Below, piece after piece: positions 12,008-35,784 of a DNA stretch of 64,000 bases. Origin of the DNA: Paramacrobiotus metropolitanus (Eukaryota; Tardigrada; Eutardigrada; Parachela; Macrobiotidae); contig NW_026570462.1 of the NCBI RefSeq assembly GCF_019649055.1, positions 38,849 to 102,848 of the forward strand, written 5' to 3'. The translations under genes and the position numbers were made by a program. Below the pieces are notes generated by a model. That model was not told the DNA's origin. It worked only from the letters and a program-made list of their open reading frames with translations, and made no database searches. The first letter of the stretch is position 1, and the number at the start of each line of letters is the position of its first letter.

Positions 12008-13215
12008 TTTTTCGTTCTACCGGATCCTTTGAGGAGACGGTAAAGGCATAATTTCGCGGAGAACTTTGGAGAACCCACGGTTGAAATCAGATTGACTGCG
12101 GACGCAGCCTCTGTTTCGACCTGCTCTTTGCTGTCTAGCGACTGTGGTAGCAACAGGTTGATCGCAAAAGCGATCCCTGCCACCTTCGCTTGCCCTATCT
12201 TTTGGCTCTTCCACACAAGGAGAGCACTTCGGCTGACTGCCCCAGACGGACGAACGGGAACTACCCCACCGCAACTGACGGAACAAGCTCAGAAGAAAGC
12301 CTGCAGCGCGCAAGGATCCTCACAACAATCGGGGACCTTCTCCTTGAACGGAGACCCGCAACTTTAACGGCGGAATTCGACCTCCCAACAGCGGATCACC
12401 GACCTCCACGGACACCGTAACGAACCGGTAAAGTCCTGGTTACAGGTCAATACTAGGTAGAATTCCTAGTTTATAACGGCTAAAAGTAATTTCTAACAAA
12501 GAAATTTTACTTTCCTACGGAAAAAACTTAATTTTCGTCGGAGAAACCGACCTAAAAAGTTACTTTTACCGACCTAACGGACCACTGTGTAACTGACCAC
12601 AGGTCGGTCATACTCTTACTTTGTTGATTTGACGGATTTTCCACCGTCGGAAAAATATCTAAAGAACCTAGAAATTATTTCTAACGGTTAGAAATTAAAA
12701 TTTCGACCAGAAAACATCTCTGATCGACCTCGAAAATAATTTGTTTTTCCGCGAAAATAAGCGTGAAAATCCTTGAATTTCCTTGTGACGTCAGAACGCT
12801 CGATTTTCAGTACTTTGAGGCTAGCCAATCAGCGTGCAGGGGAAACTTCCCATACGCTTAACATAGGCGTGAATCATCAATTTTTTTAAATTTTGCACGC
12901 GGCTCGCATTCTGTGACGTAGGCAGTGAAGTGCAAGACCACTTAGCCCTGTGACGTCATACTGGTCAGCACAGTAGTATAGGACGTACTCTACTGTAGTA
13001 CCTTATCGTACTGTACTGCACCATAGTACTGTATTGTAACGTTGTGTACTGAGTCATACACAGACACATCAACACAACAACAACAACAACAAGTCGGACC
13101 ATCCTGACCCTCGGAAGTTCCTGAACCCAAAGACGTTCCTGATTTCACTGAACATCCCCACATAAGGGATTGTTCAATTTACTGTACAACAGTACAAGTC
13201 TCTCGTTGGTTCCAC
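12008..13215. other. Long 5' leader of the giant element, hairpin-rich
   Basis: About 1.2 kb without a convincing ORF. Between about 12430 and 12780 are many short inverted repeats: 6-bp arms ACTAGG at 12452-12470 around a 7-nt loop, 7-bp arms AATTTCT at 12488-12506 extending into a longer imperfect stem to about 12514, and TAGAAA around a 3-nt loop near 12671. The motif CCGACC or GGTCGG that dominates the rest of the element first appears here. A hairpin with a CACATAA loop sits at 13149-13176, 40 bases before the first ORF. Confidence 0.55.
13149..13176. repeat. CACATAA-loop hairpin before the first ORF
   Basis: The 7-nt loop CACATAA (13159-13165) is closed by ATCCC/GGGAT and then, past a single bulged T, by TGAAC/GTTCA, giving a 10-bp stem. 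One of at least five hairpins in the element with this exact loop and different stems. Confidence 0.75.
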
Positions 13216-16200
13216 TTGAACCGACCTAACCCGACAACAATGTCGAACCCGAAGGAAAACGAATACGCCCGAAAGTTCAACACGGACTATTCGCGGCGCC
13301 TGACTTCCAACGCGCCGTATGCACTACGGCACTCCGGTCAGGATAAAAGTCAGCCGTCATCAACGGACTCAACGAAGTCGGCTGAGGCACGGGAGAAGCG
13401 CAACGAGCGGATCCTCCTCGCCGATTCCAACCCAACGTCCGATGACAGCTTCGAGGACGCCCACGACAAGACGTTCCTCGAGCCCCGAGCTGGCTTAGCA
13501 GCCCCGTCCCACCCGACCGGGGGGGAATCGGAGAAGCTGCAGGCTGAGACCACATTGTCTCATGCCGAGGCGGAACACCCACATGGTGTACCGACCTCCA
13601 CGGACCCAACAGAAGGACTTCAACTGAGCTCACAGAAAGCTCAGGAGTCGGTAACGACTACGAAAGTCACCGACGCCGGACACACATCACCCAACCAGAC
13701 GGATGACGTGAAGAGGTCGACATCGCCCAACTCGGGTAGAGCGACTTCACCGACCTCGAAGGTCGGAGAGAAGCAACCGATAACGGAAATCGGTCAAGTC
13801 CAACCGACCACAGAAGTCGGTAGGGCTTCACCAACCTCTAAGGACGGTCAACGGAAACCGACCTCGGAGGTCGGTTACCCTCAACCGGAGGTCGGACCTC
13901 ATCTGACAACACAAGTCGGAATTGAGGTCGGAAGACTACAGCAATCACCAACCAAGGAAGTTGGCCAAGTCCAACCGACAACAGAAGTCGGGAGGATTTC
14001 GCCGACCAAGACGGATGGAAGTCCACCGACCAAGGAGATTAATCAACAGAAGCCGCCTACCGAGGTCGGACCTCACCCGACAACACAAGTCGGAACCGAG
14101 GTTGGACCACTTTCACCGACCAAGGTTGGTCAACAAAGGAAGACCATGGAGGTCGGACCTCGTCCGACAACACAAGTCGGAACCGAGGTCGAACAACTCC
14201 CACCAACTTCAAGGATCGGACAACAGCAGGTCGGTAAAGTCCAACCGACCTCCCTGGAACGGAAGCCAGCGGATAACAGGTCGGATATGGACATCCAGTG
14301 GCCTAAACTACCGGCCAAAACGGGAGAAACTGAGGCCCCGCCACGAAGCGGACCTCACCCGGCTGGATCACCGACCAATATACCGATGCCTAACGAAAAG
14401 GCTATCTCACCGCTAAGTCGACCTTCGCCAACGGAAGGCAGGTCGACCCAAGCAACAGAGAAGTCCGACAAGTCGCCAACAAGTCGACCTGTCGACCTAC
14501 TGAAGAAGAAGTCGCCACTCATGTTTGAACTTGGCGACTCGGGTAGTGGAACACCACCACCCATGGACGACGTATTTGACACGACACAAGTGTCACGTCC
14601 CAGCAGCCGGGATGGATTCTTCCGAACGCCAGTGGCACCCCACTTGGGTAACCACAGGTACCAAGCAAGCACGCTTGAGTACACGGCACGGAAGTGGATT
14701 GCATCCACACCTCCAGAAAAGATCGAAGACATCGATCGACTCCGGAAACGATGCCAGGATTTGATAACACAAATCGTCCTGGCCGACCAAATCGTTAACT
14801 CCACAGAAAATCAGATGTCGCGATCGGAGGACACCCATAAGCTCGAACGGAAGCGATGGGAGAAGGAACCAGCCGAGGCCAACAATGGCATAGCTGCGCA
14901 ACAGCGCCGCATTGAACACTTGGAGAGTCACCTCAAGAGGTCCGACAATCCATGTCGGTATGACTTCGAGGAGATTGAACGTCTTCAAAGTACACTTGCA
15001 ACGTCAGTGGAGTCGGTCTTCGAACTGAAGAGACGCCTTGCCACCGTAGAAAAAGACCTGGCTGACACACAAACAGCCTTGGTCGAATCGGAACTGGCAG
15101 CAGGGACGTTCCACCAACAGCTGAAGCAGGCCAATGAAGAGGCCGAAGTGTACCGGAACGAGGTCGACAGATACATCGTCGAACTCAAGCAGGCCGACGA
15201 CGAGGTCGACCGGCAGAAATATCGAATCGAACAACTCGAAAGGGAGATGGAAACTCTCCTGGTCAGGGCAGGACGACAGCTAATGGCTCACTACGGCCAG
15301 CAACCTGCCTCACCCGACCGAAGTAGAGCCACCACCGACCTGGAACAAGCAAACGCCCAATTGGCCGACCAGGTCTACGGACTCAATGATGCGCTGAAGG
15401 AGGAACAACGACTCCGAGCACAGCTGGAACACAGCCTGGCAGAAGCCCAGAAGGTGTACGAAGCGCAACAGAACCGCATCGCACACTTGGAAGTCCGCGA
15501 AAACGACCTGTACAACTACGGTCTGGACGCGGATAAATATATCGATGACTTAAATCGATATATTGACGAGATGACCACGTATACCGACGACTTGGATACG
15601 GAGGTACGCTGTCTCCAGGAGGAAACGAAACACTTGGAACAATCCAGGACGGAGCCTCCATCCTACAGGACTTCGATGGCAACGGATTTCCACTTTGAAC
15701 CGTCGCAAACAGTTCGAGAAATCCTGTGGGACATCAAACCCAAAGAGGAGAAGAAGGAACAGAACTTCTTCGTGGGCGTGGTGACAACTAACCCGCTCAT
15801 CGGAACTCCTCCGCAGCAACAGCCTCTGCCCCACCGTCCAGAACCGGAACGGAATACGTCGACTGCGGCACCACATGTGCCAACGTCAAACGTGCCGACA
15901 ACGACGACGGCCACGTCAGGTACCTATACTAGTACCACGTATGCAACACACACATCGATGCATGCGCCAGCGCCCACCACGTCCCACCCGAATGGACCAG
16001 CGCCTAATCAATGGGGCGCAGGACGGCGACTAGGAGAGCGAACAAGCTCACATCCCAACATGGATGACTTCGGCCGCTTGACGATAAGCGACTCGACTAT
16101 CGCCGTGAACGAGCTAGGTCATATAATAACGACCTACCTCCAGGAGGACGAAGCGGACAACAGAATCCGGAACGCCCTCCCGCCGATTACCCACAAGACT

Positions 16201-16281
16201 CGCAGAACGTGCCTCGGTTCCGACCAACAGAAGGTCGGGCACCACCGAGAAGGCCGTTCAGAAGTCAGCATGGAAGGGTGA
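13216..16281 (+). CDS. Giant element ORF 1: repeat-rich N-terminus and coiled coil (1021 aa)
   Basis: A 1021-codon ORF upstream of gag, where ordinary gypsy elements carry nothing. The first listed codon is TTG; ATGs at 13231 (frame check needed) and 13241 are alternatives. Residues about 180-350 are low complexity with many copies of PTTEVG, PTSxVG and TTQVGTEVG, the translation of the element's CCGAC...GTCGG DNA hairpin. Residues about 500-825 are strongly heptad-like and charged, consistent with a long coiled coil. An 11-bp-arm hairpin with a 7-nt loop lies in the DNA at 15536-15564 and encodes DKYIDDLNRYID. The C-terminus overlaps the gag frame. A structural role is possible; the function is unknown. 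Confidence 0.65.
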   Translation: MNRPNPTTMSNPKENEYARKFNTDYSRRLTSNAPYALRHSGQDKSQPSSTDSTKSAEAREKRNERILLADSNPTSDDSFEDAHDKTFLEPRAGLAAPSHPTGGESEKLQAETTLSHAEAEHPHGVPTSTDPTEGLQLSSQKAQESVTTTKVTDAGHTSPNQTDDVKRSTSPNSGRATSPTSKVGEKQPITEIGQVQPTTEVGRASPTSKDGQRKPTSEVGYPQPEVGPHLTTQVGIEVGRLQQSPTKEVGQVQPTTEVGRISPTKTDGSPPTKEINQQKPPTEVGPHPTTQVGTEVGPLSPTKVGQQRKTMEVGPRPTTQVGTEVEQLPPTSRIGQQQVGKVQPTSLERKPADNRSDMDIQWPKLPAKTGETEAPPRSGPHPAGSPTNIPMPNEKAISPLSRPSPTEGRSTQATEKSDKSPTSRPVDLLKKKSPLMFELGDSGSGTPPPMDDVFDTTQVSRPSSRDGFFRTPVAPHLGNHRYQASTLEYTARKWIASTPPEKIEDIDRLRKRCQDLITQIVLADQIVNSTENQMSRSEDTHKLERKRWEKEPAEANNGIAAQQRRIEHLESHLKRSDNPCRYDFEEIERLQSTLATSVESVFELKRRLATVEKDLADTQTALVESELAAGTFHQQLKQANEEAEVYRNEVDRYIVELKQADDEVDRQKYRIEQLEREMETLLVRAGRQLMAHYGQQPASPDRSRATTDLEQANAQLADQVYGLNDALKEEQRLRAQLEHSLAEAQKVYEAQQNRIAHLEVRENDLYNYGLDADKYIDDLNRYIDEMTTYTDDLDTEVRCLQEETKHLEQSRTEPPSYRTSMATDFHFEPSQTVREILWDIKPKEEKKEQNFFVGVVTTNPLIGTPPQQQPLPHRPEPERNTSTAAPHVPTSNVPTTTTATSGTYTSTTYATHTSMHAPAPTTSHPNGPAPNQWGAGRRLGERTSSHPNMDDFGRLTISDSTIAVNELGHIITTYLQEDEADNRIRNALPPITHKTRRTCLGSDQQKVGHHREGRSEVSMEG

Positions 16282-18071
16282 ACGACCTTCCACCGGGATT
16301 CTACCAACAGCCACAACGGCCCCCACGAGCACCAGCTCCTCAACCGGAACATTACCCGGCTGGATACCCAGACCAACAAGGTCAGGGATATCAAGATCAA
16401 CAGGGTCGGGGATATCCACAGCAACAGAACTACGGATATCCGGACCAACAGAATCAGTATTACCCAGACCAACAAGGTCGGGGATACCACGCGGATCAAG
16501 GTTGGGAAGCAAACCCTCCCCCACCACCCTATGCCGCGGACGCCCAACAAGCGGCTACCCGGGCATTCCAGGAAACAATGATACGCGTATGTGCCCGCGG
16601 ACGCACACAGAAGCTACCGGAATTCGATGGGGACCATAACAAACTTGAAGGATGGTTAAAACAAATCCGTCGATTCTACGCGGAAGCACAGGAATGGCAT
16701 GAATCGGACCACACGTTCATGACCGACCTCATCTCACGACTCGAAGGCCAAGCCGCCCAATGGCACCGGGACACAGCCGGAGCCGAACCTGACGGAGGAT
16801 GGCCAGTCAACGTGTGGTTGACTAAATTCGAAGAGCGGTTCGGAGATAAGAACAAGGAAATTAACGCCGTAACCGCCATGGCTAAACGAAAGTACCGTTT
16901 CGGACAAGAGACACCGGAACAGTACTATGACGCCATGATGAATATCAAGTCCCGATGTGACACCATCACGGACCAGATGGCACTTTTCCATCTGAAGGAC
17001 AACATTCACGAACCCAAGCTACGAGAAGCCTTGGAGATTCGTATGCCGGCGACTCCGGTAGAACTGCGTGACTACATACGTCAGTTCGTGAACGGAAAGG
17101 AGATGTACGATGTGGTGAAGGGATCACGGGATACAGACTATGCCCGGGTCCGAGCAACAACGCCGACACCAGCTCCTTTACCGCAGGCACCAGTACAAAC
17201 AGTGTACCAGCCGTACATGATGCCGGGATATCAAAGCCCATCGGCAACATACGTGCAACCGACCACACCGATAACGCCACCAGCGCAAATGATGCCGGTC
17301 CAGCAACCGACCTGGGCAGGAGTGGCAGCTGTCAACTTGGCAGCACCCCAACCAGCAGCCGGAGCCCCAGTAAACAACTACGGAGGCCAAAGTCCTGGCT
17401 CTGGAAGCAACCAGAACAACGGAAGTTCTGGGTACAACCAAAACCCAAACCAGGGATACTCCGCATACGGTCAGAGTCCGACACAAGGATTCGGCGGCGG
17501 AGGCTACGGTCGCGGAAGAGGACGTGGCGGCGGAAATCGCGGCCGCGGTAACTTTAACCGCGGCGGAGGCGGAAACCAACAGGGTAACCGACCTTCCCAA
17601 GCACAACAAGGTGCTCGGCAGTTTACGACTTATGCGGATAAGATGGAACAACTGTTCCTTCAGTGGACGCTGGCGGACAGCTTTACTTGCCACTTCTGCA
17701 AGTTCGGGAACCATCCCCAGGCACGCTGCGCGTTCATCGGCACTCGGGTACAAGACAACCCGAATCGCCGTTGGTACGAGGATTGGCATACGCGATACCT
17801 GACGGGAGGACCGTTGGGTTCGGCCAACCCGAACTCGGCACAGATCGTGCCACCCCCGCGCCAACGCCAACAAGGAGGAGGCTCGGGCGGTGCTGGTAAC
17901 GGAAACCAGCAGACCGGCTCAGGGAATGGGTCGGGCGGAAACCGCGGGAATAGCGGTGGAGGTCAACAGGGATCTCCGGAACAGCGGCAAATGCTACCGC
18001 CACATCAGCCCTTTGGCTCGCCGTCACCCAACAATGGGCCGGCTCGGGGAAACTCCTCGGGAAACGCCTAA
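16209..18071 (+). CDS. gag: Gag-like protein with CCHC zinc knuckle
   Basis: About 620 codons. Residues about 135-300 (PEFDGDHNKLEGWLKQIRRF ... WLTKFEERFG ... YRFGQETPEQYYDAMM) match the retrotransposon Gag capsid pattern of Ty3/gypsy elements. A Gly/Arg RGG-type tract (about 435-465) is followed by a knuckle C494-X2-C-X4-H-X4-C507, which binds nucleic acid in this family. The tail is Gly/Asn/Gln-rich. The frame has no ATG near its start; the first Met in frame is about residue 124 (near 16579). The frame is open well upstream inside ORF 1 in the -1 phase, so expression by -1 frameshifting from ORF 1 or by splicing is plausible. The stop at 18071 lies five bases before the ATG of the next ORF. 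Confidence 0.85.
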   Translation: MPRFRPTEGRAPPRRPFRSQHGRVNDLPPGFYQQPQRPPRAPAPQPEHYPAGYPDQQGQGYQDQQGRGYPQQQNYGYPDQQNQYYPDQQGRGYHADQGWEANPPPPPYAADAQQAATRAFQETMIRVCARGRTQKLPEFDGDHNKLEGWLKQIRRFYAEAQEWHESDHTFMTDLISRLEGQAAQWHRDTAGAEPDGGWPVNVWLTKFEERFGDKNKEINAVTAMAKRKYRFGQETPEQYYDAMMNIKSRCDTITDQMALFHLKDNIHEPKLREALEIRMPATPVELRDYIRQFVNGKEMYDVVKGSRDTDYARVRATTPTPAPLPQAPVQTVYQPYMMPGYQSPSATYVQPTTPITPPAQMMPVQQPTWAGVAAVNLAAPQPAAGAPVNNYGGQSPGSGSNQNNGSSGYNQNPNQGYSAYGQSPTQGFGGGGYGRGRGRGGGNRGRGNFNRGGGGNQQGNRPSQAQQGARQFTTYADKMEQLFLQWTLADSFTCHFCKFGNHPQARCAFIGTRVQDNPNRRWYEDWHTRYLTGGPLGSANPNSAQIVPPPRQRQQGGGSGGAGNGNQQTGSGNGSGGNRGNSGGGQQGSPEQRQMLPPHQPFGSPSPNNGPARGNSSGNA

Positions 18072-18076
18072 GGTCG

Positions 18077-21000
18077 ATGAGCCCCGGTGACTCATTCGAC
18101 CTGCGACATCCCACCGAACCACCGGACAAGGATAACCCCACTAACCAACCGCACTTTAACCGGAGAGAACCACCTGTCCCCACAACAGAAGGGGAAGTCA
18201 TCCAACAGATTGATGCATTGGTCAGACAACTAGGTCTGGACCATAACAGTACAGAAGAAGAATTCGTGAACGCATTGTTGGCTCCAACAGAAGAAGCCAC
18301 AATGGCCAGAACAATGGCAGAACGACTTGGAATTTTTGTCAACAATGGCAAAATCGAGATCCGGACCAGAACGCAACGAATGCCCGACTCACCCGACCCA
18401 GCGCATCAACTCGGCGTTGGAACGTCGGAGGCCGGAACGCAGGGATTGCCCGGACCGACCGACCCAATACCTCAACTTGGCATTGGAACGTCGGAGGTCG
18501 GAACGCAAGAAAGGCCCGACCTACGCAGCACGAACAATGTGACTGCGCCGCCCGCCACAGAAAGTGACGCAGGACGGACCGGCCACGAAAGCTGGACCGG
18601 ACTGCCGGTGAGAAGAAACTCAACCGAGCAGCCCAGACAAGGGCCAAGACGCGGAGGACCGGGACGCCGATTCACGCAAAGGGGCAACAGAAACTTCCCC
18701 AATGTATCATCCGGACGCGCAACGGATAGATACGCTGCAACAATGGCAGCTATCGACCTCACCGAAGAATCGGAAGGAGAAGTCGAAATATGGGAAACAT
18801 TCCCTCTGGAAGTACAGGCACCCGCTCACTGGCTGCAGCAGGAGTCGGACCTCTCCCAGCAACAACCTCAACCGGCTAGAACAGTAGCCGGATCTCGGAC
18901 GTTCGTCAACCTTGACTACATATGGTCGCAAGTGAGGCCAACGGAAACCTCGATAGAAGAACGGATACGAGAACAAACACGACGGTTCGAAACTCCCACC
19001 GATGTGCTGGAGGGCGGAGTAGCTAACCGACCTCGGGCACATGAAGTGGTCGTAACCGAAGTGGAACCAATCCAAGGTACGCTGACGCCAACAGAAGGCG
19101 GATCAGTCTCCTTAATTCCCGTCACACCGACTGTACGGGAAGTGACCTTCGAAAAAGGGACTCACAAGAAACCGAAGACGGTCAGAGCCTGGACACACGA
19201 AATCCGGATCGGACCGACGCCCACAATGGCGATGCTCGACACAGGAGCAGAGACTTCGCTGATCGAACAACGATTCTGCGAACAAAACGACCTGCCTATG
19301 CAACCCCTTGGCCATTACACTCGGATACTTGGCGTAGGCGGACAAGTTGCCTTCACCGTAACCCACTGCTGCACCGTACCGGTAACGCTGCAGGGATTTA
19401 CGAGCCATCATACATTCCACGTTCAACCGAACAACGCGGATATCCCAGTGTTACTTGGATGCGACTACCTTCATTCCAAGTTCACCTTTGTGTTAACACC
19501 CATTCCTAACCCGGAACGACCTGGAGGAATGACGGTAGTGCAGTCTATCCCGATACCAGAGGCATCGGGCACGGTAACAAATGAAGCAAGGATAAGTCGG
19601 CTTGATCACCCGTCAAACCCCTTGCCCAACATTTGCCGTGACTGCCGGGATACCAACCGGACTCTGATCGAGGAAATGCAACTGCACAACTCCATTGAAG
19701 CGTACGAAGAACGGATACGGACTGGAAAACTACATCCGAAGAAACGTATACTGAAGACGGCAGTAAAGTCTATCCCGATACCAGAGGCATCCGCAACGGA
19801 AGCGGATGCCATCTTAGAAGTCCAACAAAAGTACCGGACTTGGTTTACGGGAACACAACACTTTCTCGACCGACGGACGTTGGAGATGTTGGCCACTCTG
19901 CAACAGAACGGAGCGGTGACTACGGACCAGATACAGGAAGCACAACGGACATGCGAACCTGTATTGGCTCTCGCCGAAGACATCGACGATGAAGCTTGGG
20001 AATGGGAAGACGAACGAGTCCCAATTCATCGGCAGTACATGGAATACGGACTTCCAGTACCACGCCCTCTGGAGATACCCTGCCAAGAACTAGGCGGAGC
20101 ACTCTTCAGTTATATGCGACAAGTACAGTTGTACGGAGAATCGACTACAACTGCGTTTTGGAAACGGTACGGCGAGGACACCTCAATAACAAGGAAGATC
20201 CCCGACCCGTTACCGCCAATCACGGAACACTTTCCGAAGGAAGTCAAATTCGTTAACGACCTGAAGAAGCCAACTGAGCACACGCAAATTGGCGAAACTG
20301 ACCGACCTGATCGCTGCATAATCTGCAACGATAACATTGATGGAGTCGTCCGGACGCTGAAGACTCACCATGACTTGACATGGATTGACGGCAGACCGTC
20401 GTCACCAGCCCCTCCGCAACCAGAACGGAAGGTAAACTCAAGCCGGAAGACCAAGTCGGTAGTTAACCAATGGCTGAGCAACATAAGCTCACAGCCACCC
20501 GACCTGGAGAAACAGGACGAAGAGAGTCGACCGACCCAACCGAAGGAAACGGTCGACCAGGGAGTACCGACCACGGAAGTCGGAGAAGGTAGTGCGCCAC
20601 CGACCACAGAAGTCGGACATGGCGACACACCTGACGCTAACCCTGAAGACGAGCAAGAATCCGAGGAATATAACTCGGACGTCTCGGACGTACAAAGTTC
20701 GAGCGATTCACCGGACACAGACTCCGATAACCAACCTTCGGAAGAATCCGAGGAAGAGGATGATGATGAGGAATTCGACCCGTCAGTACGAAACTGCAGG
20801 TCAGATAAACCGCGGAATGACGACTCGGACGACTCATCCGAGGAGGACGAAGAACCGACCTACGACGTCCGGCTGACAAAAGCTTTGCGGTCCGTCATCC
20901 ACACTGAATTCATAGTCGACCTTCCCCCGGAACAAACCGGACAGGAAAAGCCAGTCGATGTCGAACAACAGGCGGAACTTGAACAACTTCAAATTTTACG

Positions 21001-25197: not shown

Positions 25198-25227
25198 CCT
25201 AGGCCAGCGGACATTAGCGACCGACCT

Positions 25228-26385
25228 ATGTCCCCGGTTACTGAAGCTAGAATAATGTCAGCAATACCGGACCCAGGAACGATGCCAACAAGCGCACCAC
25301 CTCACTTGGTTAACCTGGTGAATCAGACGATGGAACTCATTACAGAAATGAGAGCCCGTCGAATCTTTTGTGATTCCAACAGCCGGTTAGCACAAGACTT
25401 GGACCGTGATATTTTGGCCTGGGGAACTAACGTAAAGTTCCTCCGCCAACTCCACCATCCAGACGCGCCGAAGACTCCCGGCATAAGAGGCCATATAATA
25501 AGGACCTCTTCCTGGTTGGAGACGCGAGTCCGAGATTACATTGAAGAACGGGACCGTGACCAACAACGAAAGGAAACCTCTGAAGCATCGCTGCGGACTG
25601 CAGCAACGGATCGTCGAGCTCGGATCACACAAATCCAGTCGACACGTAACCCGACGGACCCTTTCGCGGTTCCACAATCCATACCGGATGACGAAATCCA
25701 GTTGACTCTGCAGACCGCGGACAGATTGATTGGTGAACTTTACCAATTACGGGACTCAACCGACCCGCAGACTCCGCAGTACTGCCAAATCGACATCAAC
25801 CTAGGCCACTTGGAGAACAATACCAAGGAGGTCCGATTCATTCTCCGACCTGAGACGCAACGGACCGTCAAGAATCAGGATCGGTTACGGATTCTTAAAG
25901 TCAAAATTGACAGCTTCGCGGAAGACTTCTACAAACGCAAACAACAGGAAGCAGAACGCAAGCTGAAAACTCCCGCGAAGAAGATTAAGGCGACACTTAA
26001 GCCACCGGTCCAACCTGTCAAACCATTAGAGGTTCAACAAGATGAACCAATGGATGAAGTACCGCCACTCGGGAACGAACTCGAGGTCGGAGCATTTGAA
26101 CAGGTGGACATGGATACTTCCGAAACACCAACAACACCGCAGGGTGGCCAACCGAAGCCAACCGCTCGACTCACTCGACCAACAACTTTTCCGGGACTCT
26201 CACATAAAGAGCCCATAGCAGATGATAAAGGTCCGAGGAGACGCCTATTCTCACCTCCACCGGTCCGAACAAAGGAACAACTGTTGGAAATCCTGAAAAA
26301 GACTCCAATGGACGAAACACAACCGGGTCAGTCACAGAAACCGACCTCGGTAACGAAGTCAGTGTTCACCCCCCGGAGTCCATAA
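25228..26385 (+). CDS. Accessory ORF b: charged helical protein (385 aa)
   Basis: ATG start 31 bases after the previous stop. Mainly helical, with similar composition to the preceding ORF (ETRVRDYIEERDRDQQRKET, LIGELYQLRDS), then a basic stretch and a Pro/Thr-rich tail. A CACATAA-loop hairpin with stem GGGaCTCT/AGAGCCC is embedded in the coding DNA at 26193-26214. The end overlaps an open +1 frame that leads into the next ORF across a run of six C (about 26370). The function is unknown. Confidence 0.6.
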   Translation: MSPVTEARIMSAIPDPGTMPTSAPPHLVNLVNQTMELITEMRARRIFCDSNSRLAQDLDRDILAWGTNVKFLRQLHHPDAPKTPGIRGHIIRTSSWLETRVRDYIEERDRDQQRKETSEASLRTAATDRRARITQIQSTRNPTDPFAVPQSIPDDEIQLTLQTADRLIGELYQLRDSTDPQTPQYCQIDINLGHLENNTKEVRFILRPETQRTVKNQDRLRILKVKIDSFAEDFYKRKQQEAERKLKTPAKKIKATLKPPVQPVKPLEVQQDEPMDEVPPLGNELEVGAFEQVDMDTSETPTTPQGGQPKPTARLTRPTTFPGLSHKEPIADDKGPRRRLFSPPPVRTKEQLLEILKKTPMDETQPGQSQKPTSVTKSVFTPRSP

Positions 26386-28852
26386 GAAGTTAGTCCGACA
26401 GGCTAAGAACTATGACCTGGAACGGATCCTCAACGAAGCCCACCTAACAGAGGGACTGAGGCTAGGAAAGCTATCCACTGACGAGCAACAAGCACTCGGC
26501 CAGCGGATATACGCGTTGATCCAGGACAGGGATAAGGCTCTACGCCGACTGATGTTTGTGAGGTGCGGAAGACAGGCACTACGACAGCTTCCGTTGGACG
26601 CGGCCATTATTAAGCCAGCCCAACTACTCCGACACCCTCGCATCAACCCTGCAGCCTACACGTTGGAGATGCCTCCTCAACCCGGTCAACAGGTTACCGA
26701 GAAGATTCGATGCATCATGTCCGACAGTAGCGACGAATCTGACCACAACTACAGAAAGGGTGCTCAGATCGAAGATGACCCGACCTATGACGACGACTTA
26801 ACCTGGCAAGAGACCCTGCTGATGGATGCACAGACAAGCTCCAGGTCGTCATATGGATCTCGACCGGCAGAATCAACGCCGAGAAGGAGTAGGTCCCCGG
26901 TGAAACAGATCTCACCGAACCGGGCAGCGTCTCAACCGGCAACGATGCCGAGTCAACCTCCGAAGGAACAGCCACGTAGGTTTACGCCCCGGAATACTCC
27001 AACCAAACCAAAGCAAACCCCGGAGGAGATGGACACGACGTCTCCAAAGGAGGTCGGACCTGAATCACAGAATGAATCGACCTCGGAACCAGCCAAGTTG
27101 GTCATAGACGAATCTCGGACAGATGAACCGGCAACAGCTCCGGGTAAGAGAAGTAAAAAGAAGCAGCAACCGGCTGATGACTTCTCGCGAGAATACCACG
27201 ACGACCCAGCCTTAAAGCACGTTCAGGACCTGACCAGGTCGGAACAGGATGCGAGTGTGGACACTGCGTTCCCAGAGGACAAAGAACTCTGGAACTCACT
27301 GAAGTCACGCCGTGCTAGCCTCGTTGGAAACACCGACGCGGTCCGTAAGGAACACGAACGACTTACGCAAAGGATGGCTGAGGTCATGAAAAGAATGGGA
27401 GAACGATTCCGTGCGGAGAAGGTCCGACCTGCGGCACAACAACAGGCCGCTACGACTCGACCGAAACTCTTTGCACCGGACCCGAAGTCGACCTCCACGA
27501 CAACACGTCAATTGGTGGTCAAGATGAAGAACCCTCAACCAGTAAGGGAACCTTCCGTGCAGATCCAGGACGAATTACTGGATTCAAAGGTGATCAACTC
27601 GGCTAACTCGGCTAAGTTGTCACGGAGAGAGAAGAAAAAGGCTAAGAAAGAAGCCAGAAAGGAAGCTGAAAAAAAGGCGACCAAACAACCTCCAAAGGAA
27701 CCGACTAAACCGAGGTCGGACCTTTCAATTAAGACGCCGAAACCTAACCCGGCCAAACGGCATAAGTCCTCCGACGACCTTGATACCTCAGACGCTGGCC
27801 CACAGAAGCCGGACAAAAAGGGGAACGCCAAGGAGGAATTTGACTACGACGCAGCCAAACAGCGGATGCGAGAACTGATCGCCAGAGCAGGTACTGCGGC
27901 GACCAAAACGGAGGCCGAAAGACCACACGAAAGGTCTAAGCCGACGCCTAAGCCACCACCCAAGCAACCGAAACCTTCTACGTCCAAGAAAGACTCGGAC
28001 GATGAATCAGAGAAACCCTCGGAACCCGACGATGAGATCTCCGACCATGGAGAAGCCGATCCATACGAAGGATTTAAAGGCGATCGGAATGAAGAATGGA
28101 GTCACGAAGAAGACACTGACGCTTCTGAATGGCCAGCCCCTGATGACGTACGTCAGCGGCTACCCGACGCTCAACCTGGCGACCGACCAGTCGGATTTCA
28201 TACGGTTCGACTTCACGTCGAAATAGTCCGAAGCGTCAGGAACGCCCGAAACGAAGGCAGAGATGTGTACCAGTCATTGGTGCGCGACCTCTCGACCAAC
28301 TTAAGGATCGTAGGTCGGACCTCACCCTGGCTCACACAGAAACTTATGATGGCTATAGTGGCATGGGCCTTGGACTTCGGATTAGCCGTAGCGGTCCACC
28401 GACAATGGGGACGGACCGCCGAGTTAATCGCACCAGACATTATTCAAAAGCTCAAAAGTGCCGCTGCCAGAGCACTGGACGACCCGCCGACGAGAATCGT
28501 CAGATGCATCGGATACGCAAGAAACCCTCGCGGATCCTCCTTACTACACATCGCCCGTATATACAACGTTATGTACGAGAACAGCCAGGGCAATATTGAC
28601 GTCATAATGGATCTTCTAAGACCTGTCATCGCAACGATGGTGGCAGAGTTTTCCCTCCAAACGACCAACGCGGAACGCGATTTACCACTTCGGTACACAG
28701 TACCTCGGTTCATACCGGAGCAGCAACGACGCGATTTCAAACTCCGGATGTCCTTTATTAACCTACAGTCCTCTCCCGAAGGTACCGAAATGATCGTCGA
28801 GGAGTACAGTGAGTCGGATGAACAACCATCCGGCGAGGCGGCGGACATGTAG
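26353..28852 (+). CDS. Accessory ORF c: disordered linker + helical C-terminal domain (~778 aa)
   Basis: The frame is open from about 26353 with no ATG until about 26552, and overlaps the previous ORF in the +1 phase, so it may be the second half of a frameshifted fusion. The first part (KNYDLERILNEAHLTEGLRLG...) is helical. The middle is long, charged and low-complexity (KKKAKKEARKEAEKKATKQP and similar). The last about 220 residues form a compact-looking helical domain (HTVRLHVEIVRSVRNARNEG ... SPWLTQKLMMAIVAWALDFG). This domain is of a similar style to that in the ORF at 30894, but I could not align the two with confidence. The function is unknown. Confidence 0.55.
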
Positions 28853-28873
28853 AACATCGCACGGGCGTCAGGT

Positions 28874-30235
28874 ATGTCGTCACAGAAACGACTACCAACC
28901 AACCGACCTCGGGCACCGTTTGAACCGGTAACATATGTCAACACCGCCTCAGCACCAGCAAGAGCAAGCGCAACTAAGCCAGATCGGACCACAACCGGAC
29001 GTTTTGCGGCGAAAGACACGCAATCTCTTCCACCGACCTCACCCATGGAAACTTCACCGGCCCCGGAAGGTAAGACTCCACGGAAGAGTCAACCTAAACC
29101 GGCGAAATCAACAAAGAGGTCGGCGAAGACCAAGGAGAAAACGCCCTCCGAGGAAGAGGACGAAGACGAAGAAGAAGAAGACGAGGAAGATGACGACACC
29201 TATCAAACACCAGAAGGGTCGGAGGATGACGATAACGATGACGACGACCAACCTCCACCAGCTTCGGCACCACAACAACAGGGTGAACCGGAGATTTCTG
29301 ACAATCAGAACGAACCACCGGCCAACAACGGCAACGAAGCTGACGAGCCGATGGAGGAAGATAGTGGTGACGTCTATGTTCCTCAGAATTACCGTCAACA
29401 AGTACGGTTAACACCTGATTCCGACCCGAATCAACTCCTCCAGGAATGGAACGAGGATACCCAGGAAGTCCTACCGTTACAGATTCCTAGCCTACCGAAG
29501 GTAAACGTCAAACACCCGACGGTGGCCATTAAACGTGCTCATACTCTACCCCCACGCGTCTCGGAATACGACCCGGGATGGATGTACACCTTCGCGGCCT
29601 TGAAGGCCCTGGCGACCTGTGGACCGAAGTTTGCGACACCGAAGATCGCATTCCAGCTCCTCAGGCACCATAAGATCGGTGACATCGGTGGAGGTTGGAG
29701 GCAACTAAGCCAGAGCAACGTATACCGGTACTGTAACCTTGGGTACAACGAAAGTAAAATCATACGGACATACACCAGCAGCAAGCGGATGTATTACGAG
29801 TTCCCACCGGAGAAACGAGATCCGGCGCCGACCACTTACGAAGGTTGGGTACATGCCATCGAAGCGTGTATGGAAATGTCGTGGCACCCGGAAGGACTGA
29901 CCCGCGGCGAAGTTCTACATCAGCTGGTAGCTAGGTTCGAATTTGAATGGGAAGCCAGAAAACCCCAGCTAGTCGACCCGAAGTACAAGCCCACGAACAG
30001 AGTGAAAGGAGGCGAAAAGTACATGTTGGGTGACGACTTGGACTTCGTCCTGAGCAAGGGATTCTTCCAAAAGAGATTTGGCATCAACCAGACTCGGGAA
30101 GGAGAACGATACGAAGCCCTTAAGCCATCAACACACCGACACGGACACTTACCGAAGCATCCACCGACCTCGGAGCAACAGAATGAGTCAACCGACTCTC
30201 TCCAGGTGAACCGGGTGGAATCGACTAACGGATGA
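28874..30235 (+). CDS. Accessory ORF d: acidic N-terminus + two winged-helix-like domains (453 aa)
   Basis: ATG at 28874, whose first codons form a CACAGAA-loop hairpin (28876-28892). Residues about 80-165 are Glu/Asp-rich and disordered. Residues about 235-320 (YTFAALKALATCGPKFATPK ... NESKIIRTYTSSKRMYYEFP) and about 325-425 look like two winged-helix domains; the first ends in the wing strand shared with element A's ORF at 915-1421. This suggests DNA or chromatin binding, by inference. It is followed by about 240 non-coding bases with two CACATAA-loop hairpins, then the zinc-ribbon ORF, the same order as in element A. Confidence 0.6.
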   Translation: MSSQKRLPTNRPRAPFEPVTYVNTASAPARASATKPDRTTTGRFAAKDTQSLPPTSPMETSPAPEGKTPRKSQPKPAKSTKRSAKTKEKTPSEEEDEDEEEEDEEDDDTYQTPEGSEDDDNDDDDQPPPASAPQQQGEPEISDNQNEPPANNGNEADEPMEEDSGDVYVPQNYRQQVRLTPDSDPNQLLQEWNEDTQEVLPLQIPSLPKVNVKHPTVAIKRAHTLPPRVSEYDPGWMYTFAALKALATCGPKFATPKIAFQLLRHHKIGDIGGGWRQLSQSNVYRYCNLGYNESKIIRTYTSSKRMYYEFPPEKRDPAPTTYEGWVHAIEACMEMSWHPEGLTRGEVLHQLVARFEFEWEARKPQLVDPKYKPTNRVKGGEKYMLGDDLDFVLSKGFFQKRFGINQTREGERYEALKPSTHRHGHLPKHPPTSEQQNESTDSLQVNRVESTNG

Positions 30236-30283: not shown

Positions 30284-30300
30284 AGTACCACATAAGTACT
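30284..30300. repeat. CACATAA-loop hairpin
   Basis: Loop CACATAA at 30289-30295, arms AGTAC/GTACT. It lies between ORF d and the zinc-ribbon ORF, 49 bases after the stop. Confidence 0.75.
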
Positions 30301-30353: not shown

Positions 30354-30372
30354 AGGCACCACATAAGTGCCT
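30354..30372. repeat. CACATAA-loop hairpin
   Basis: Loop CACATAA at 30360-30366, arms AGGCAC/GTGCCT. A related hairpin GGACA/TGTCC with loop CAACAGAA lies just upstream at 30322-30339. Confidence 0.8.
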
Positions 30373-30475
30373 TGGACCAGCTCGAGAACCGACCCGGCCC
30401 GACCGTTGTAATTATAGGGTGTAACATTTATAGGCTAACGAATCCGAGAAACGGATCGTTTAACTTTTCTTTTGA

Positions 30476-30925
30476 CAGCCGCGAACGGAGGCGTACACGG
30501 CGGACTGCCGACATTGCAGAGAGAACTCAACTCCGCAGGGCAACAGACTCCCATGCGCGGACTGCATCATTTCCTTCTCGGATGAACATACCCCACAAGT
30601 CGGACGTCGTGACGCGATGCAAGCAGCGGCGTTGTACATAAACGTCGTCGCTGGGAACATCAGCGCATACCGACGTTTAGCCCGCAGCGAACGCCTGATT
30701 AACCAGTTACGGGCCTACGAACAGGATCATTTGTCGGAAATCCAACGCAACCGCGCTTCCGACCCCGGATGGACTCACACAGTGCCACCGACCCTGACCC
30801 ATCGACTCTTGGAATATCGTCAGCAACAGGACCTGCGACGCCAGGAGGAGGACCGTGCAAAACTTAAAGGCAGTCAACGAAAGAATTGCCACCATGAAGG
30901 TCCATCCACCACCAACGAAGCATGA
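30476..30925 (+). CDS. Accessory ORF e: zinc-ribbon protein, homologous to element A ORF 3 N-terminus
   Basis: Open from just after TGA at 30473, which is part of a good splice-acceptor context (TTTTCTTTTGACAG, ending 30478), to TGA at 30925; about 149 codons. The first in-frame ATG is at 30617, but the zinc ribbon lies before it: C-X2-C at 30506-30517 and C-X2-C at 30554-30565 (CRHCRENST ... PCADC). Element A ORF 3 starts with CRRCQHNTN...CVEC, also right after an acceptor-like TTTGCAG. I infer that the zinc-ribbon coding is reached by splicing. Downstream it overlaps the start of the next ORF in a different phase, whereas in element A the two parts are one ORF. Confidence 0.5.
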   Translation, partial: QPRTEAYTADCRHCRENSTPQGNRLPCADCIISFSDEHTPQVGRRDAMQAAALYINVVAGNISAYRRLARSERLINQLRAYEQDHLSEIQRNRASDPGWTHTVPPTLTHRLLEYRQQQDLRRQEEDRAKLKGSQRKNCHHEGPSTTNEA

Positions 30926-32624
30926 ACCACAAATCACTGTTCACCTACAGCAGCCCACACAAGGCCGCTCAGAGTCGGAACAGGTGCTTCATGACGTGAG
31001 AGAAGTGATAGTCGGAGACATTCACCGACCTCTTCAGTCCGCATCAATCCAAATGATGATGCGACAGGACGACGGAACCATGAAAATGGTCACTCTTTAC
31101 CCTGCAACGGCGGAGCAGATGGCAACGATCCCACAAAAGGTCGTTCCAGTGGTCACACAAACCCAGCCATCTATTCCCCAGGAGATTCCTCAACCTGGAT
31201 CCTCGGCACAACCAGTTGCCGCGTCGTCGACTCAACAGCAGCGCCGACCTGCCAAACCATTGGCCGGACACGACCTTCGACATAGGCTCGGACACGACGC
31301 TCGACACAGAATCGAGGAACGACGAGCCTCTGCCGGACACGGCAATAGTGAAGCAACCCGACCTTCACCTGGTAAACGGTCAAGTCCGGAGAAGACGAGC
31401 ATGGGACTGGTCGTCGACTCAACCAGTAAGTCGAAACGGAACTTCGTCCCACCTGAACACCAACCAGAACCGGAAGCCCACATGGCGGAACCGGCAGACA
31501 AACCCGAAGAAATGGATGTGGATGTGGCAAATCAGATGGCCTCGATGCCAACAGTGCAAGTTCCAAGCCAGGACGACCCCCGTTATGACAACGCCCGACG
31601 ACAGGGAGTTGAGGTCGTCATGCCACATCCGACCGAAAGGACGAATTACATCATGAACACCCTGGGATACGAGGAACGCCACCGACCACACATTTGGCGG
31701 ATGGTAGAAAACCTGCGTCAGTTCCTCATCCGATCCGGATTCCAGACCAGATTCCAATTGAATAACTGGATGGGCGAGTTCAACATGAACGACCACCCCA
31801 ACGTGGAACACCCGATCAATCGAGCAAACGCTTTGCCTTCGGTGCATGATCCGGCACTGTTGGACGTACCTTTGTCCACACCGGAGAGGACGAGTCTAAG
31901 TCAGCTCGGACCTCAGGAGTACTCACGCGATCAACTGGAAAGCGTGGCTCAATTCGTCATCACCGACGCCCACCCGGCCTTCATCATCGCAGCGGCTCGA
32001 GCGGCCCTGGACTTACTGCAGTACTTGCCGGAAGAAGAACCAGGACCAGAAGATCGAAATGCAACCATTTTGCGGTACGTCTTCGCAGCAAGGCTAGGCA
32101 ACTACTTTTGCCACTACACGCTGTGGGGAGCACGTCGCACGGCACATATCCCACCAGAACTGGATACGATCGTCGCACAACTTGGCTCACCCATGCGAAG
32201 TATCATCTTGGCAGTTTGGTTACGCGACCTCCTTTACATACAGGAACGGCACGCGGCCAGATACGCCTTCCGCAAGGACTTCAAAGATCCAGACGACGAT
32301 GCGGCCGAATTCGTGAAGTGGTACCGCGAAGAAAAAGCGTTACCTAGCGGATTCACCTCTAGACCATACGGAGAAGGGATGTCGGACGACTTGGCTCCCG
32401 GCGCAGTACCTAACGCGCATAAGCTCCGTAGGAAGGTCCAGAAAGCCAAGAAGGCGCGGGCGGAACAACCTGGCCAGGAAGACACCCCACAACAAGATGG
32501 GCAACCACCAGCAACATGTAAGCCTGACGTCTTCCGGCGCCTTGGTCGACCACCACCTAAATCTGACGATGACGAGGAAGATTACTTCGGCGGCGACCCG
32601 CCGATCTCAGTCCCCCTGGGATAA
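30894..32624 (+). CDS. Accessory ORF f: helical-domain protein (576 aa), homologous to element A ORF 3
   Basis: The frame is open from 30855, but ATG 30894 has a near-ideal context (GCCACCATGAAGG), giving 576 residues. The N-terminal third is Pro/Gln-rich. Residues about 240-520 are helical and contain QFVITDAHPA, RAALDLLQYL and 'LRYVFAARLGNYFCHYTLWGAR', which align with QFILPDTDPA, RAACAMQQKI and 'LKKYI...CHAHHWAR' in element A ORF 3. The tail is basic then acidic. A CACAGAA-loop hairpin lies in the coding DNA at 31300-31316. The TAA stop directly abuts the strongest CACATAA-loop hairpin of the element (32624-32648). The function is unknown; the fold is shared by at least two diverged elements. 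Confidence 0.65.
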   Translation: MKVHPPPTKHEPQITVHLQQPTQGRSESEQVLHDVREVIVGDIHRPLQSASIQMMMRQDDGTMKMVTLYPATAEQMATIPQKVVPVVTQTQPSIPQEIPQPGSSAQPVAASSTQQQRRPAKPLAGHDLRHRLGHDARHRIEERRASAGHGNSEATRPSPGKRSSPEKTSMGLVVDSTSKSKRNFVPPEHQPEPEAHMAEPADKPEEMDVDVANQMASMPTVQVPSQDDPRYDNARRQGVEVVMPHPTERTNYIMNTLGYEERHRPHIWRMVENLRQFLIRSGFQTRFQLNNWMGEFNMNDHPNVEHPINRANALPSVHDPALLDVPLSTPERTSLSQLGPQEYSRDQLESVAQFVITDAHPAFIIAAARAALDLLQYLPEEEPGPEDRNATILRYVFAARLGNYFCHYTLWGARRTAHIPPELDTIVAQLGSPMRSIILAVWLRDLLYIQERHAARYAFRKDFKDPDDDAAEFVKWYREEKALPSGFTSRPYGEGMSDDLAPGAVPNAHKLRRKVQKAKKARAEQPGQEDTPQQDGQPPATCKPDVFRRLGRPPPKSDDDEEDYFGGDPPISVPLG

Positions 32625-32648
32625 CAGGTTCCCACATAAGGAACCTGT
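32624..32648. repeat. CACATAA-loop hairpin at the end of the last ORF
   Basis: Perfect 9-bp arms, ACAGGTTCC (32624-32632) and GGAACCTGT (32640-32648), close the loop CACATAA. The left arm begins with the last base of the stop codon. Confidence 0.85.
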
Positions 32649-32831: not shown

Positions 32832-32850
32832 GCCAACCACATAAGTTGGC
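32832..32850. repeat. CACATAA-loop hairpin
   Basis: Loop CACATAA at 32838-32844, arms GCCAAC/GTTGGC, in the non-coding 3' region. Confidence 0.8.
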
Positions 32851-33137: not shown

Positions 33138-33179
33138 AACATGGTGTCGAAAACGTTGTCACGTTCTCGACACCATGTT
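33138..33179. repeat. Long hairpin, 13-bp perfect arms
   Basis: AACATGGTGTCGA (33138-33150) and its exact complement (33167-33179) flank a 16-nt spacer that itself contains AACG...CGTT. An imperfect relative with arms of about 16 bp lies at about 33726-33775 (AGCATGGCCCGGAACAC). Confidence 0.85.
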
Positions 33180-33284
33180 CGCCTGGCACCCGTGGCCGAC
33201 TTTGGGACCGGGTAACCGACCAGTAACTTTCATCACCGCAGACAGTGGTATCCTCATCGGCCCGCAATGTCACATGGTTCGGAA

Positions 33285-35784
33285 TTGACCACAGAAGTCA
33301 AAACCGACCTGTTACGACATGACGCATTGAATTAACCGAAGGCAGGAACGAAGAACCGGACTCCCGCCCAGAGACCTAACTTCGCAGACCGCGACCTCAA
33401 CCGTGCCCCGTTACCTCAGTCAACCACAGAAGTTGACCATTTCCGAGGTAGCTAAAGGAAGTGACGCAGACCGTGTCACAGAACCACGATCCACTACCTT
33501 TGTTGACCACGGAAGTCAGCCAATTTTAAGGTAGAACTTGGACCTTCTCTAATCACGACTCGGATAACTTAGCCGACCACAGAAGTCGGTGAAGTTTCAA
33601 CCTTACATCCGAAGAACACCTGGTATAGAAGGGCACCCAACGCAGACCGTGTTGGTTAATTACGATCTACGACATCAACACTCCGGCAACCGGACTCCGG
33701 AGTACAAACCAGCGAGGATTCCGCTAGCATGGCCCGGAACACAGCACTGCGGTGTGTTCAGGACCATGCTTGCTAAGGCACCCACGGTTAACTCCGAGAA
33801 ACGGACGGCCGATAGGATAACAAGTCCCTAAATAACACGGAATCAATCGGACCGCAACGGAACGGACAGTGTCAACTATGACCCGCTACCTAGAATCGAC
33901 CACAGAAGTCGATTTGCCAACGGTAGCCGACCTTCGAAACATTGACCAACCGACGTCGACCTGACGGAAGCATATGGAAATTACAAACGGGATGGCTTTA
34001 TCGCAGTCTTTACTGACTACAGAAGTCGGTAAAGGTGACCGCAAACCGCGACACCTGACTACGATTTTAGTCTGGACGGATTCTCCGTTTGAACCCGGAT
34101 CTACAGGCTCTCAACCAGGAACCTGTACCTGGAGTCCAACCGCAGTCTCCCCCGGCGGATATCGGATAAACCAACCGATTCACCGGTGACCACGACTACG
34201 CGCGGCTTGACCGTGCTGCCATTACCTGAAGAGGAACAGCGACGGTGATTTGGCTACTGACGTACCAACGACTCCGCCGCGACCTGCTTCCCCATGTCTC
34301 AATGGAACATCTTAGGCAAACCGTGTTAGGACACACGGCTTGCACCCCTATACAGATCCCTACGGACGTGTGATGTCTTTCCCCAACAGAAGTGGCAAGG
34401 CGTCACAGGTTCGCGGAACCGAACGAAGGAACTCCAAACCAGGGGAATGAAGTGATCTGATTTTACCTCAGTTTGCATGTTGTATGGGGATGGGAACGGG
34501 CAGTCTGACATAAGTCGGGGCCCGACGCACAACTCTGCCGAGGCGCGAGAACCTTACGCCGGTTTGAAACCAAAGAGTCTGTCTTGTGGAGTGGGACCAC
34601 AGAAGTCCCTTGACGCCACAAGCGACCTGGATTGCATGCTGAATGGCCAACAGACGCCATGGGACTGCCGAACTTGACGGAACTCGGACCCGTCCAGAGG
34701 CAAAACCATCGACCCGAACCAGGGCATGTTGGAGGCATGAAAGAGACCATCGCTTCAAACAAACCTCGCAGAGATCGGATGAGTGCCCAGAGGCTTAAAC
34801 CGACCTCCTGACATACGGAACCGACCTGGATGAAGAATCACCGACCTCGGGTTGGATAACACTATGTCCAACCTCAGGTCGGATAAAATGGAAACCGACA
34901 ACAGGTCGGTTATGAGGATGATTCCACCGAAATAGACTTGTACGGCTCCACTTTGAGCCTGCATACTGTAACTCACTTCAGTTGAACACGGAACCAAGGA
35001 ATCACCGACCTCAGGTCGGATAACGTTGTAACCGACCTCGGGTCGGACACCTGAAGTAACCGACAACAGGTCGGTGGATGGAGACGCCATCCAAGACGTT
35101 CACGGAAAACGACTTCCGGACGCAAGGAATCGACCTTAATCGACCTGGGACTTGGAGTAACCGACCTCCAGTCGGATAACATTATCACCGACCTCAGGTC
35201 GGAGAACCGGTCCAACCGACCACAGAAGTCGGTTAGGAACGCCGGATTGTTCGGATTCGCTTGGAACACCAGCGGATTAGCCGAAATACGACCTTCGAAC
35301 GGACCCGTCACGTGGTAACCGACCTCAGGCCGTATAACATAACCACCGACCACGGGTTGGATAACATCATACCCGACCTCAAGTCGGACATCAGAAGCCA
35401 CCGATAACAGGTCGGTGAAGCATCATTAAATTGCAGAACGGAATTGGAAACGACCACCAAGTGGACGAATCCGACCTAACGGGACTTGTTTGGCTCCACA
35501 TGGGCCTAAATCACACAAGTTACCGAGGTCGACCATGGAGGTGCGTTATCACCGACCTCAGGCCGGATAACATTGCGACCGACCTCAGGTCGAATATCCA
35601 TCCCAACCGACAACAGGTCGGATGACAACAGTGAATCATCAGTGGATGGACGGAGCAACAAATTCCGACCGGACCTTCGAGCCAGTTCGTATCGGAAGTC
35701 ACACCCAGGCTCGTGGTAGCAGATTTAATGGTTTTAACCGACCACATTCCATCGGCATTACCACTTGGCGACCACAGAAGTCGC
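33285..35784. repeat. Dispersed CACAGAA-loop hairpins with covarying stems
   Basis: Loop CACAGAA or a one-base variant with stems: TTGAC/GTCAA (33285-33301), GTCAAC/GTTGAC (33419-33437), TGAC/GTCA with loop CACGGAA (33504-33518), CCGAC/GTCGG (33573-33589), AATCGAC/GTCGATT (33894-33914), CTTTACTGAC/GTCGGTAAAG with one G-T pair and loop TACAGAA (34008-34034), GGGAC/GTCCC (34593-34609), AACCGAC/GTCGGTT (35214-35234), GCGAC/GTCGC (35768-35784). The inner GAC/GTC is usually kept; the outer pairs change together. Confidence 0.8.
34839..35622. repeat. Five blocks of palindromic CCGACCTCAGGTCGG motifs
   Basis: Blocks begin near 34839, 35003, 35158, 35318 and 35551, so four of them are about 160 bp apart. 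Each holds two (or nearly two) copies of CCGACCTCAGGTCGG followed by ATAAC, then one hairpin, mostly CCGACAACAGGTCGG. The palindromes are 7 bp either side of a central C. Sequence between blocks is not conserved. Confidence 0.7.

Follow-up and report, generated by a model that had tools for sequence, protein, structure and literature searches.

Why would a 25-kb retrotransposon carry, along most of its length, small hairpins whose loop hardly varies and whose stems do? We analyzed a stretch of 64,000 nucleotides from the tardigrade Paramacrobiotus metropolitanus (NCBI RefSeq contig NW_026570462.1, positions 38,849 to 102,848 of the forward strand; hereafter the window, to which all coordinates refer), in which a long terminal repeat (LTR) element occupies positions 11541-37033 between two near-identical LTRs of ~442 bases each. 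A sequence-only reading of the window had described hairpins spread through this element that share a 7-nt loop while their stems differ yet stay complementary, and had attributed them to selection on structure. We identified 28 such hairpins with 23 distinct inner stems; all eight stems quoted in that reading are present, those given with coordinates lying where it placed them, and the loops AACGGAA (four hairpins) and AACGTAA (one), absent from its list, also belong to the family. Based on shuffled sequences, compensatory change in other copies and the orientation of the loops, selection on hairpin structure is well supported. Sense RNA is the likely substrate, and we infer a protein binder and a role in packaging.

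We defined the A-type loop as [ACT]AC[AG][GT]AA (counted as NACRKAA) and a hairpin as such a loop closed by at least five perfect pairs. In the element, the sense strand has 87 matching heptamers, 28 of them closed in this way, and the antisense strand has eight, none of them closed, a weak zero at n = 8. At the same threshold, the wider loop NACNNAR gave 37/384 on the sense strand and 0/86 on the antisense strand, and the narrower MACAKAA of the sequence-only reading gave 20/49 on the sense strand. That reading had proposed a comparison with shuffled sequence of equal composition, and such sequence fails to match the observed count: 1000 dinucleotide shuffles of the element averaged 0.033 hairpins and never exceeded 2, and among 300 shuffles within 500-base blocks the highest count was 1. 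A chance origin is thereby ruled out. The heptamer itself is also enriched (87 observed versus a shuffle mean of 32.9). When the letters of the motif were permuted, 400 sampled permutations gave a mean of 0.48 hairpins, and the five that gave 17-21 are variants overlapping the motif. In the host flanks (38.5 kb, both strands), none of 108 A-type heptamers was closed by even three pairs. CACAGAA (12 hairpins) is the commonest heptaloop string among the perfect hairpins of the element. Because the loops face one way, the data favor sense RNA as the substrate, or else an oriented single-strand function.

The stems of the 28 hairpins are 5-9 bp long, and the sites span 13154-35784 (~22.6 kb). The inner stem CCGAC occurs six times, so not all hairpins are independent; each of the remaining 22 inner stems is unique. 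A constant loop on a free stem suggests that the site is read through its loop. Within the NACNNAR set, the closing pair is C-G in 26/37 hairpins and the next pair is A-T in 23/37. Sixteen of the 28 lie in open reading frames (ORFs), where every codon phase is represented, and the remaining 12 lie outside the listed ORFs; in the NACNNAR set, 23 lie in ORFs (phases 7, 6 and 10) and 14 outside. Nine of the 28 fall in the 3.6 kb 3' of ORF8, and spacing is irregular. Four of the six CCGAC hairpins encode PTTEVG repeats (the other two are outside ORFs), and a fifth hairpin, at 13776, encodes the related PITEIG, which raises the question of whether the hairpins are a by-product of peptide repeats. 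The single use of the other 22 inner stems, the use of all codon phases and the 12 sites outside ORFs leave that explanation next to no probability; it is refuted in general, with the exception of the PTTEVG subset.

The sequence-only reading had pointed to genomic copies of the element as a check on whether stems are conserved by compensatory change. From the P. metropolitanus assembly (169.8 Mb, eukaryotic), we retrieved 60 pieces of ~1 kb from other copies and later added five more. Our tally, which left out the window's own copy (L001, L002 and L013), covered 33 hairpins (loop NACRNAR, at least 5 bp), 30 of them with at least one other locus, and counted distinct variants; these variants are related by descent, so the counts are not independent events. 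Where both bases of a stem pair had changed, 29/30 pairs stayed Watson-Crick, versus 425/1061 among control pairs (3000 pairs drawn from the same alignments), and the stems are thus kept through compensatory change. Of the remaining cells, 758 were unchanged and 21 were gaps; where a single base had changed, the outcome was G.T in 34 cells, A.C in 57 and something else in 41. Many of the single changes and mismatches may reflect decay after insertion. Hairpins of a more distant family in the same genome (family C, below) covary too: GGCCCC/GGGGCC in one variant corresponds to GGCTCC/GGAGCC in another, and GGGCC/GGCCC to GGACC/GGTCC, the latter with a G.T intermediate.

We used the Gag protein to search the genome, scoring 150 candidates and drawing family borders from the protein matches. 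Copies of the window's element (family A) share 88-100% amino acid (aa) identity in Gag, family B has ~60-71% and family C ~45-50%; a search with ORF6 identified a more distant group, D, with ~37% aa identity. Long stretches were scanned from one B copy (C60), three C copies (C110, C68 and C4) and 8.2 kb of D. For the loops NACRKAA, AACANN, ACAMA and CAAYA, in that order, hairpins of at least 5 bp numbered 28, 2, 0 and 0 in the family A element and 4, 16, 9 and 0 in the B copy; in the C copies, which overlap in homologous regions so that their sites are not all independent, they numbered 0, 0, 1 and 13 (C110), 0, 1, 0 and 14 (C68), and 0, 0, 1 and 8 (C4). Family A uses heptaloops, B mixes AACANN hexaloops and ACAMA pentaloops with some A-type loops, and C uses CAAYA pentaloops and no A-type loops. 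None of the four motifs formed a hairpin on the antisense strand of the A, B and C copies. Sets of 100 shuffles of these copies never exceeded 2, a comparison that is post hoc for the B and C motifs, as these were picked after viewing the hairpin lists. The most frequent loop string recurred 12 times in A and in C110, 9 times in C68, 7 times in B and 6 times in C4; in the 38.5 kb of flanks, loop strings of 4-8 nt recur three times at most.

The separation of A from C is clean, with 0/588 sense NACNNAR heptamers in C closed by five pairs. At the family A sites 13154, 13975 and 30354, CACAMAG replaces CACAKAA or AACAGAA in family B, and C1 and G7 of this loop are able to pair. Across B heptaloops, A7 accompanies G or T at position 5 (27 cases) and G7 accompanies A or C there (27), the crossed kinds numbering 3 and 4 (counts from related pieces). 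The sites at 31300 and 17891 retain the A-type loop core in B. In an exploratory 6 kb of group D, we identified seven tetraloop hairpins with [CT]A[AC]C (shuffle maximum 2 of 500) and three pentaloop hairpins with CAACC; a further loop code in D is suggestive only and unproven. In two D pieces (L113 and L114, G000:C6), the tetraloops are CAAC and TACC, and their stems differ.

Predicted folding with ±100 nt of context gave a stem probability >0.5 in 25/28 hairpins of A, 29/29 of B and 34/35 of C. Given 21 aligned sequences of 33200-34100, RNAalifold picked the heptaloop hairpins unaided, and three column shuffles yielded almost no energy. The term for covariation was small (-0.94 for the sense strand and +0.81 for the antisense strand), and folding of the antisense strand had the lower energy (-86.9 versus -69.2), so this run shows no preference for the sense strand.

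Known substrates of the RNA methyltransferase METTL16 have an ACAGA-containing loop. ACAGA occurs in 15/28 loops here (12 CACAGAA, two AACAGAA and one TACAGAA), and a host RNA-binding or RNA-modifying protein, such as a METTL16-type methyltransferase, might on this ground be taken for the reader. However, 13/28 loops lack ACAGA, and in the flanking host sequence no heptamer is closed by three or more pairs (0/108). The same host also harbors family C, whose loops are CAAYA and which lacks NACRKAA hairpins altogether; a single host reader would not impose different loops. We therefore consider a host reader quite improbable. The occurrence of different loops within one host argues instead for a reader encoded by each family.

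We propose that, in the sense-strand genomic RNA of this giant Ty3/gypsy element, the hairpins serve as dispersed recognition sites. The constant loop would be read by a protein that the element lineage itself encodes, Gag, which has a CCHC knuckle, being the likeliest; the stem would merely present the loop and could thus drift by paired changes. With many such sites, an RNA of 25-30 kb would be singled out and compacted as particles assemble, and the loops could also be a mark that prevents the co-resident lineages A/B and C from cross-packaging. Gag comes first among the candidates since it has to choose its RNA and the knuckle is present. The CX2CX4HX4C stretch is conserved across six aligned A, B and C sequences, and the knuckle residues read CKF..QARC in A/B versus C[ML]W..QASC in C. 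An A/B-specific accessory protein was considered as reader and rejected for ORF6, which also occurs in C and D; ORF4 and ORF7 had no tblastn match in the family C stretches searched, which are possibly incomplete. We found no support for the winged-helix binder suggested in the sequence-only reading. AlphaFold gave an unusable model for ORF7 (mean pLDDT, a per-residue confidence measure, 37.2).

An element-encoded reader might act instead in translation, nuclear export, stability or processing of a long multi-ORF RNA. Copies do hold several long frames, and hairpins lie at or between ORF borders at 13154, at 28876 (the ORF7 start), at 30284 and 30354 (between ORF7 and ORF8) and at 32624 (the ORF8 stop). 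With 16/28 sites inside ORFs, 9/28 in the 3.6 kb past ORF8 and irregular spacing, we regard such a role as unlikely. Dispersed packaging sites read by Gag, with lineage-specific loops, in giant Ty3/gypsy RNA form an explanation whose chances we judge about even. We advance more tentatively, at somewhat less than an even chance, the idea that A/B and C have distinct loop codes, each coevolving with its own RNA-binding protein and acting as a barcode through which RNAs of up to ~30 kb are recognized as self and packaged.

Several observations weigh against Gag-read, lineage-specific packaging sites. The A and B Gag knuckles are almost alike while their loops partly differ, so the knuckle alone cannot set specificity; further regions of Gag, or a different ORF, may have a share in it. 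Families A and B also overlap in their loops, as 20/61 distinct heptaloop hairpins in the pooled B pieces are A-type. When the D loops were predicted beforehand for a further 2.2 kb, one tetraloop hairpin (a count reached by 26/500 shuffles) and no CAACC hairpin were found. Retroviral and Ty1 Psi signals belong to the same replication class, with Gag the likely reader (PMC8396678; for mouse mammary tumor virus, PMC8096270; both in excerpt); however, the excerpted text of PMC8396678 places classical retroviral packaging signals near the 5' end and not along the whole RNA, whereas the hairpins of the tardigrade element are spread over ~22.6 kb. Finally, G.U mismatches are not favored over A.C in the tally (34 versus 57; controls, 1830 versus 2687), so the wobble comparison lends RNA no support. 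Among variants common to at least two loci, stem pairs 1-3 hold four G.U and one A.C, and pairs 4 and beyond hold one G.U and six A.C.

The absent G.U preference matches a functionless origin in which reverse transcriptase folds back at certain loops and copies one arm off the other, creating and mending small palindromes; such copying would make no distinction between DNA and RNA, and would yield paired changes too. It would nevertheless require a particular loop at 23 different inner stems, with another loop needed for family C; the stems are 5-9 bp long, and single-change intermediates exist, G.T included. We consider fold-back copying a rather poor prospect.

The nearest parallel to dispersed sites read by Gag is found in viruses, satellite tobacco necrosis virus and parechovirus among them. 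In MS2, for example, dispersed packaging signals are several stem-loops on one genomic RNA with a common short loop motif, and Gag-like proteins that have been repurposed may assemble in a similar way (PMC6281560, in excerpt); those of hepatitis B virus have -RGAG- loops (PMC7612645, in excerpt). The family A element is similar in having 28 dispersed stem-loops with a common loop, variable stems and a structure kept among related copies. It differs in that the carriers are LTR retrotransposons, the loop is nearly strict and, with its covariation, can be seen from sequence alone, and a co-resident sister family has a different loop. The sequence-only reading had likened the hairpins to a tRNA anticodon arm. 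The likeness is confined to the geometry of family A, a 5-bp stem and a 7-nt loop. An anticodon arm has U33 at loop position 2, whereas the enriched loops, like the scanned motif in which it is fixed, have A there, and families B and C have loops of 6 and 5 nt; in these respects the likeness fails. A tRNA search of the window (bacterial settings) found none, and Rfam 15 gave no match at E up to 1 in 11541-37033.

The element resembles giant Ty3/gypsy LTR elements in having two LTRs and, in a family B copy, protease, reverse transcriptase, RNase H and integrase in order (Table 1); it differs in an extra long frame (2385 aa, B copy) and in ORFs without a Pfam match above the cut-off. We scored at least 40 LTR matches across the genome. 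The Gag frame matched Pfam Retrotrans_gag only below the cut-off, and a protein-database search with Gag returned none of 7988 scored candidates at E 0.001. In the window's copy, Pfam matched only the protease, and the domains from reverse transcriptase to integrase were not found; in the family B copy L040, reverse transcriptase, RNase H, H2C2 and integrase domains stand in Ty3/gypsy order. Two marker regions, at 19700 and 25300, are 5.6 kb apart in the window's copy and ~10.2-10.4 kb apart in copies on C25, C3, C126, C23 and C33, so the window's copy is probably missing ~4.7 kb of pol, including most of reverse transcriptase and integrase; the spacing deviates in two further copies (C280, ~14.9 kb; one C5 copy, ~7.8 kb). 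Longer copies would measure ~30 kb. Part of ORF4 through ORF7 corresponds to the single 2385-aa frame of family B (L041:415-7572), which lies 3' of pol, has no Pfam match above the cut-off and has two database relatives, named 'uncharacterized protein' and 'titin homolog'. Even though the LTRs are near-identical, no target-site duplication was seen at 11541 and 37033, where the bases outside the two LTRs differ by eye; recombination between copies could explain this.

Table 1. Frames, repeats and A-type hairpins of the family A element (hairpins as 5' arm/loop/3' arm)
Feature	Position	Strand	Remarks
5' LTR	11541..11981	+	near-identical to 36591-37033
Hairpin ATCCC/CACATAA/GGGAT	13154..13170	+	before ORF1; paired changes to ATCTC/GAGAT and ATCCT/AGGAT
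ORF1, open frame of 1021 aa	13216..16281	+	related frames in B and C copies examined
Hairpin CTGAGCT/CACAGAA/AGCTCAG	13624..13644	+	family B pieces have neither A-type nor B loop there
Hairpin ACCGAT/AACGGAA/ATCGGT	13776..13794	+	encodes PITEIG, related to PTTEVG
Hairpin ACCGAC/CACAGAA/GTCGGT	13803..13821	+	
Hairpin CCGAC/AACAGAA/GTCGG	13975..13991	+	
Gag open frame	16209..18071	+	CX2CX4HX4C stretch, a zinc knuckle named by eye
Hairpin CCGACC/AACAGAA/GGTCGG	16220..16238	+	
Hairpin CCAGAAC/AACGGAA/GTTCTGG	17411..17431	+	paired changes to CCAGAAT/ATTCTGG and CCAAAAC/GTTTTGG
Hairpin TGCTGGT/AACGGAA/ACCAGCA	17891..17911	+	inner paired change in CGCCGGT/ACCGGCA; present in family B too
Aspartic protease frame	18077..22507	+	Pfam gag-asp_proteas, E 1.5e-8; frame end resembles first part of reverse transcriptase
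Hairpin GGCATCCGC/AACGGAA/GCGGATGCC	19786..19810	+	
Hairpin TGAGC/AACATAA/GCTCA	20475..20491	+	
Hairpin CCGAC/CACGGAA/GTCGG	20567..20583	+	
Hairpin CCGAC/CACAGAA/GTCGG	20600..20616	+	
ORF4-ORF7	22378..30235	+	separate frames in the window's copy
Hairpin CTCAT/TACAGAA/ATGAG	25336..25352	+	
Hairpin GGAACT/AACGTAA/AGTTCC	25423..25441	+	
Hairpin GTCGT/CACAGAA/ACGAC	28876..28892	+	first base is G of the ORF7 ATG
Hairpin GACTC/CACGGAA/GAGTC	29074..29090	+	
Hairpin AGTAC/CACATAA/GTACT	30284..30300	+	GACAC/GTGTC in L083; AACAC/GTGTT in L077
Hairpin AGGCAC/CACATAA/GTGCCT	30354..30372	+	
ORF8	30855..32624	+	open frame
Hairpin CTCGA/CACAGAA/TCGAG	31300..31316	+	paired change to TTCGA/TCGAA
Hairpin ACAGGTTCC/CACATAA/GGAACCTGT	32624..32648	+	begins at last base of ORF8 stop; no homologue among fetched pieces
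Hairpin GCCAAC/CACATAA/GTTGGC	32832..32850	+	no homologue among fetched pieces
Hairpin TTGAC/CACAGAA/GTCAA	33285..33301	+	
Hairpin GTCAAC/CACAGAA/GTTGAC	33419..33437	+	paired changes to GTCGAC/GTCGAC and GTTGAC/GTCAAC
Hairpin CCGAC/CACAGAA/GTCGG	33573..33589	+	
Hairpin AATCGAC/CACAGAA/GTCGATT	33894..33914	+	
Hairpin GGGAC/CACAGAA/GTCCC	34593..34609	+	
Hairpin AACCGAC/CACAGAA/GTCGGTT	35214..35234	+	
Hairpin GCGAC/CACAGAA/GTCGC	35768..35784	+	
3' LTR	36591..37033	+	near-identical to 11541-11981

Further hairpins accompany those in the table. A second loop, the 9-nt string GCAGACCGT, occurs within the element at 33466-33474, 33642-33650 and 20391-20399, and all three occurrences are in hairpins, with the 5-bp stems GTGAC, CCAAC and TGACG. 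An array with 27-nt spacing at 34835-35623 has CCGAC/GTCGG stems and the 5-nt loops CTCAG, CTCGG and AACAG. By eye, three heptaloop hairpins (~33413-33451, 33494-33534 and 33888-33926) sit inside the outer pairs TACCTC/GAGGTA, CTACCTT/AAGGTAG and CTACC/GGTAG, which suggests a larger repeated RNA domain.

In the host flank, duplicated stretches at 37993-45017 (~4.4 kb apart, 75-91% alike) are probably tandem host genes. A nematode host was considered and set aside; no exact SL1 was found. A tandem array of 105-bp units, mostly ~90% alike, occupies 52500-53639 within an open frame of 346-370 aa, and a perfect 222-bp direct repeat lies at 60576-60797 and 61128-61349, its starts 552 bases apart.

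Among openly licensed papers, the titles and abstract openings reported no such hairpins in retrotransposons, and we found nothing on Paramacrobiotus and retrotransposons together. Dispersed packaging signals have been argued mostly from degenerate motifs and assembly experiments. The sites described here are legible from the sequence, covary across copies and come with natural loop variants between families of one genome. This makes testable how the Gag of a retroelement selects its own RNA among close relatives, and it hints at a way in which particles could take up retroelement RNAs of great length.

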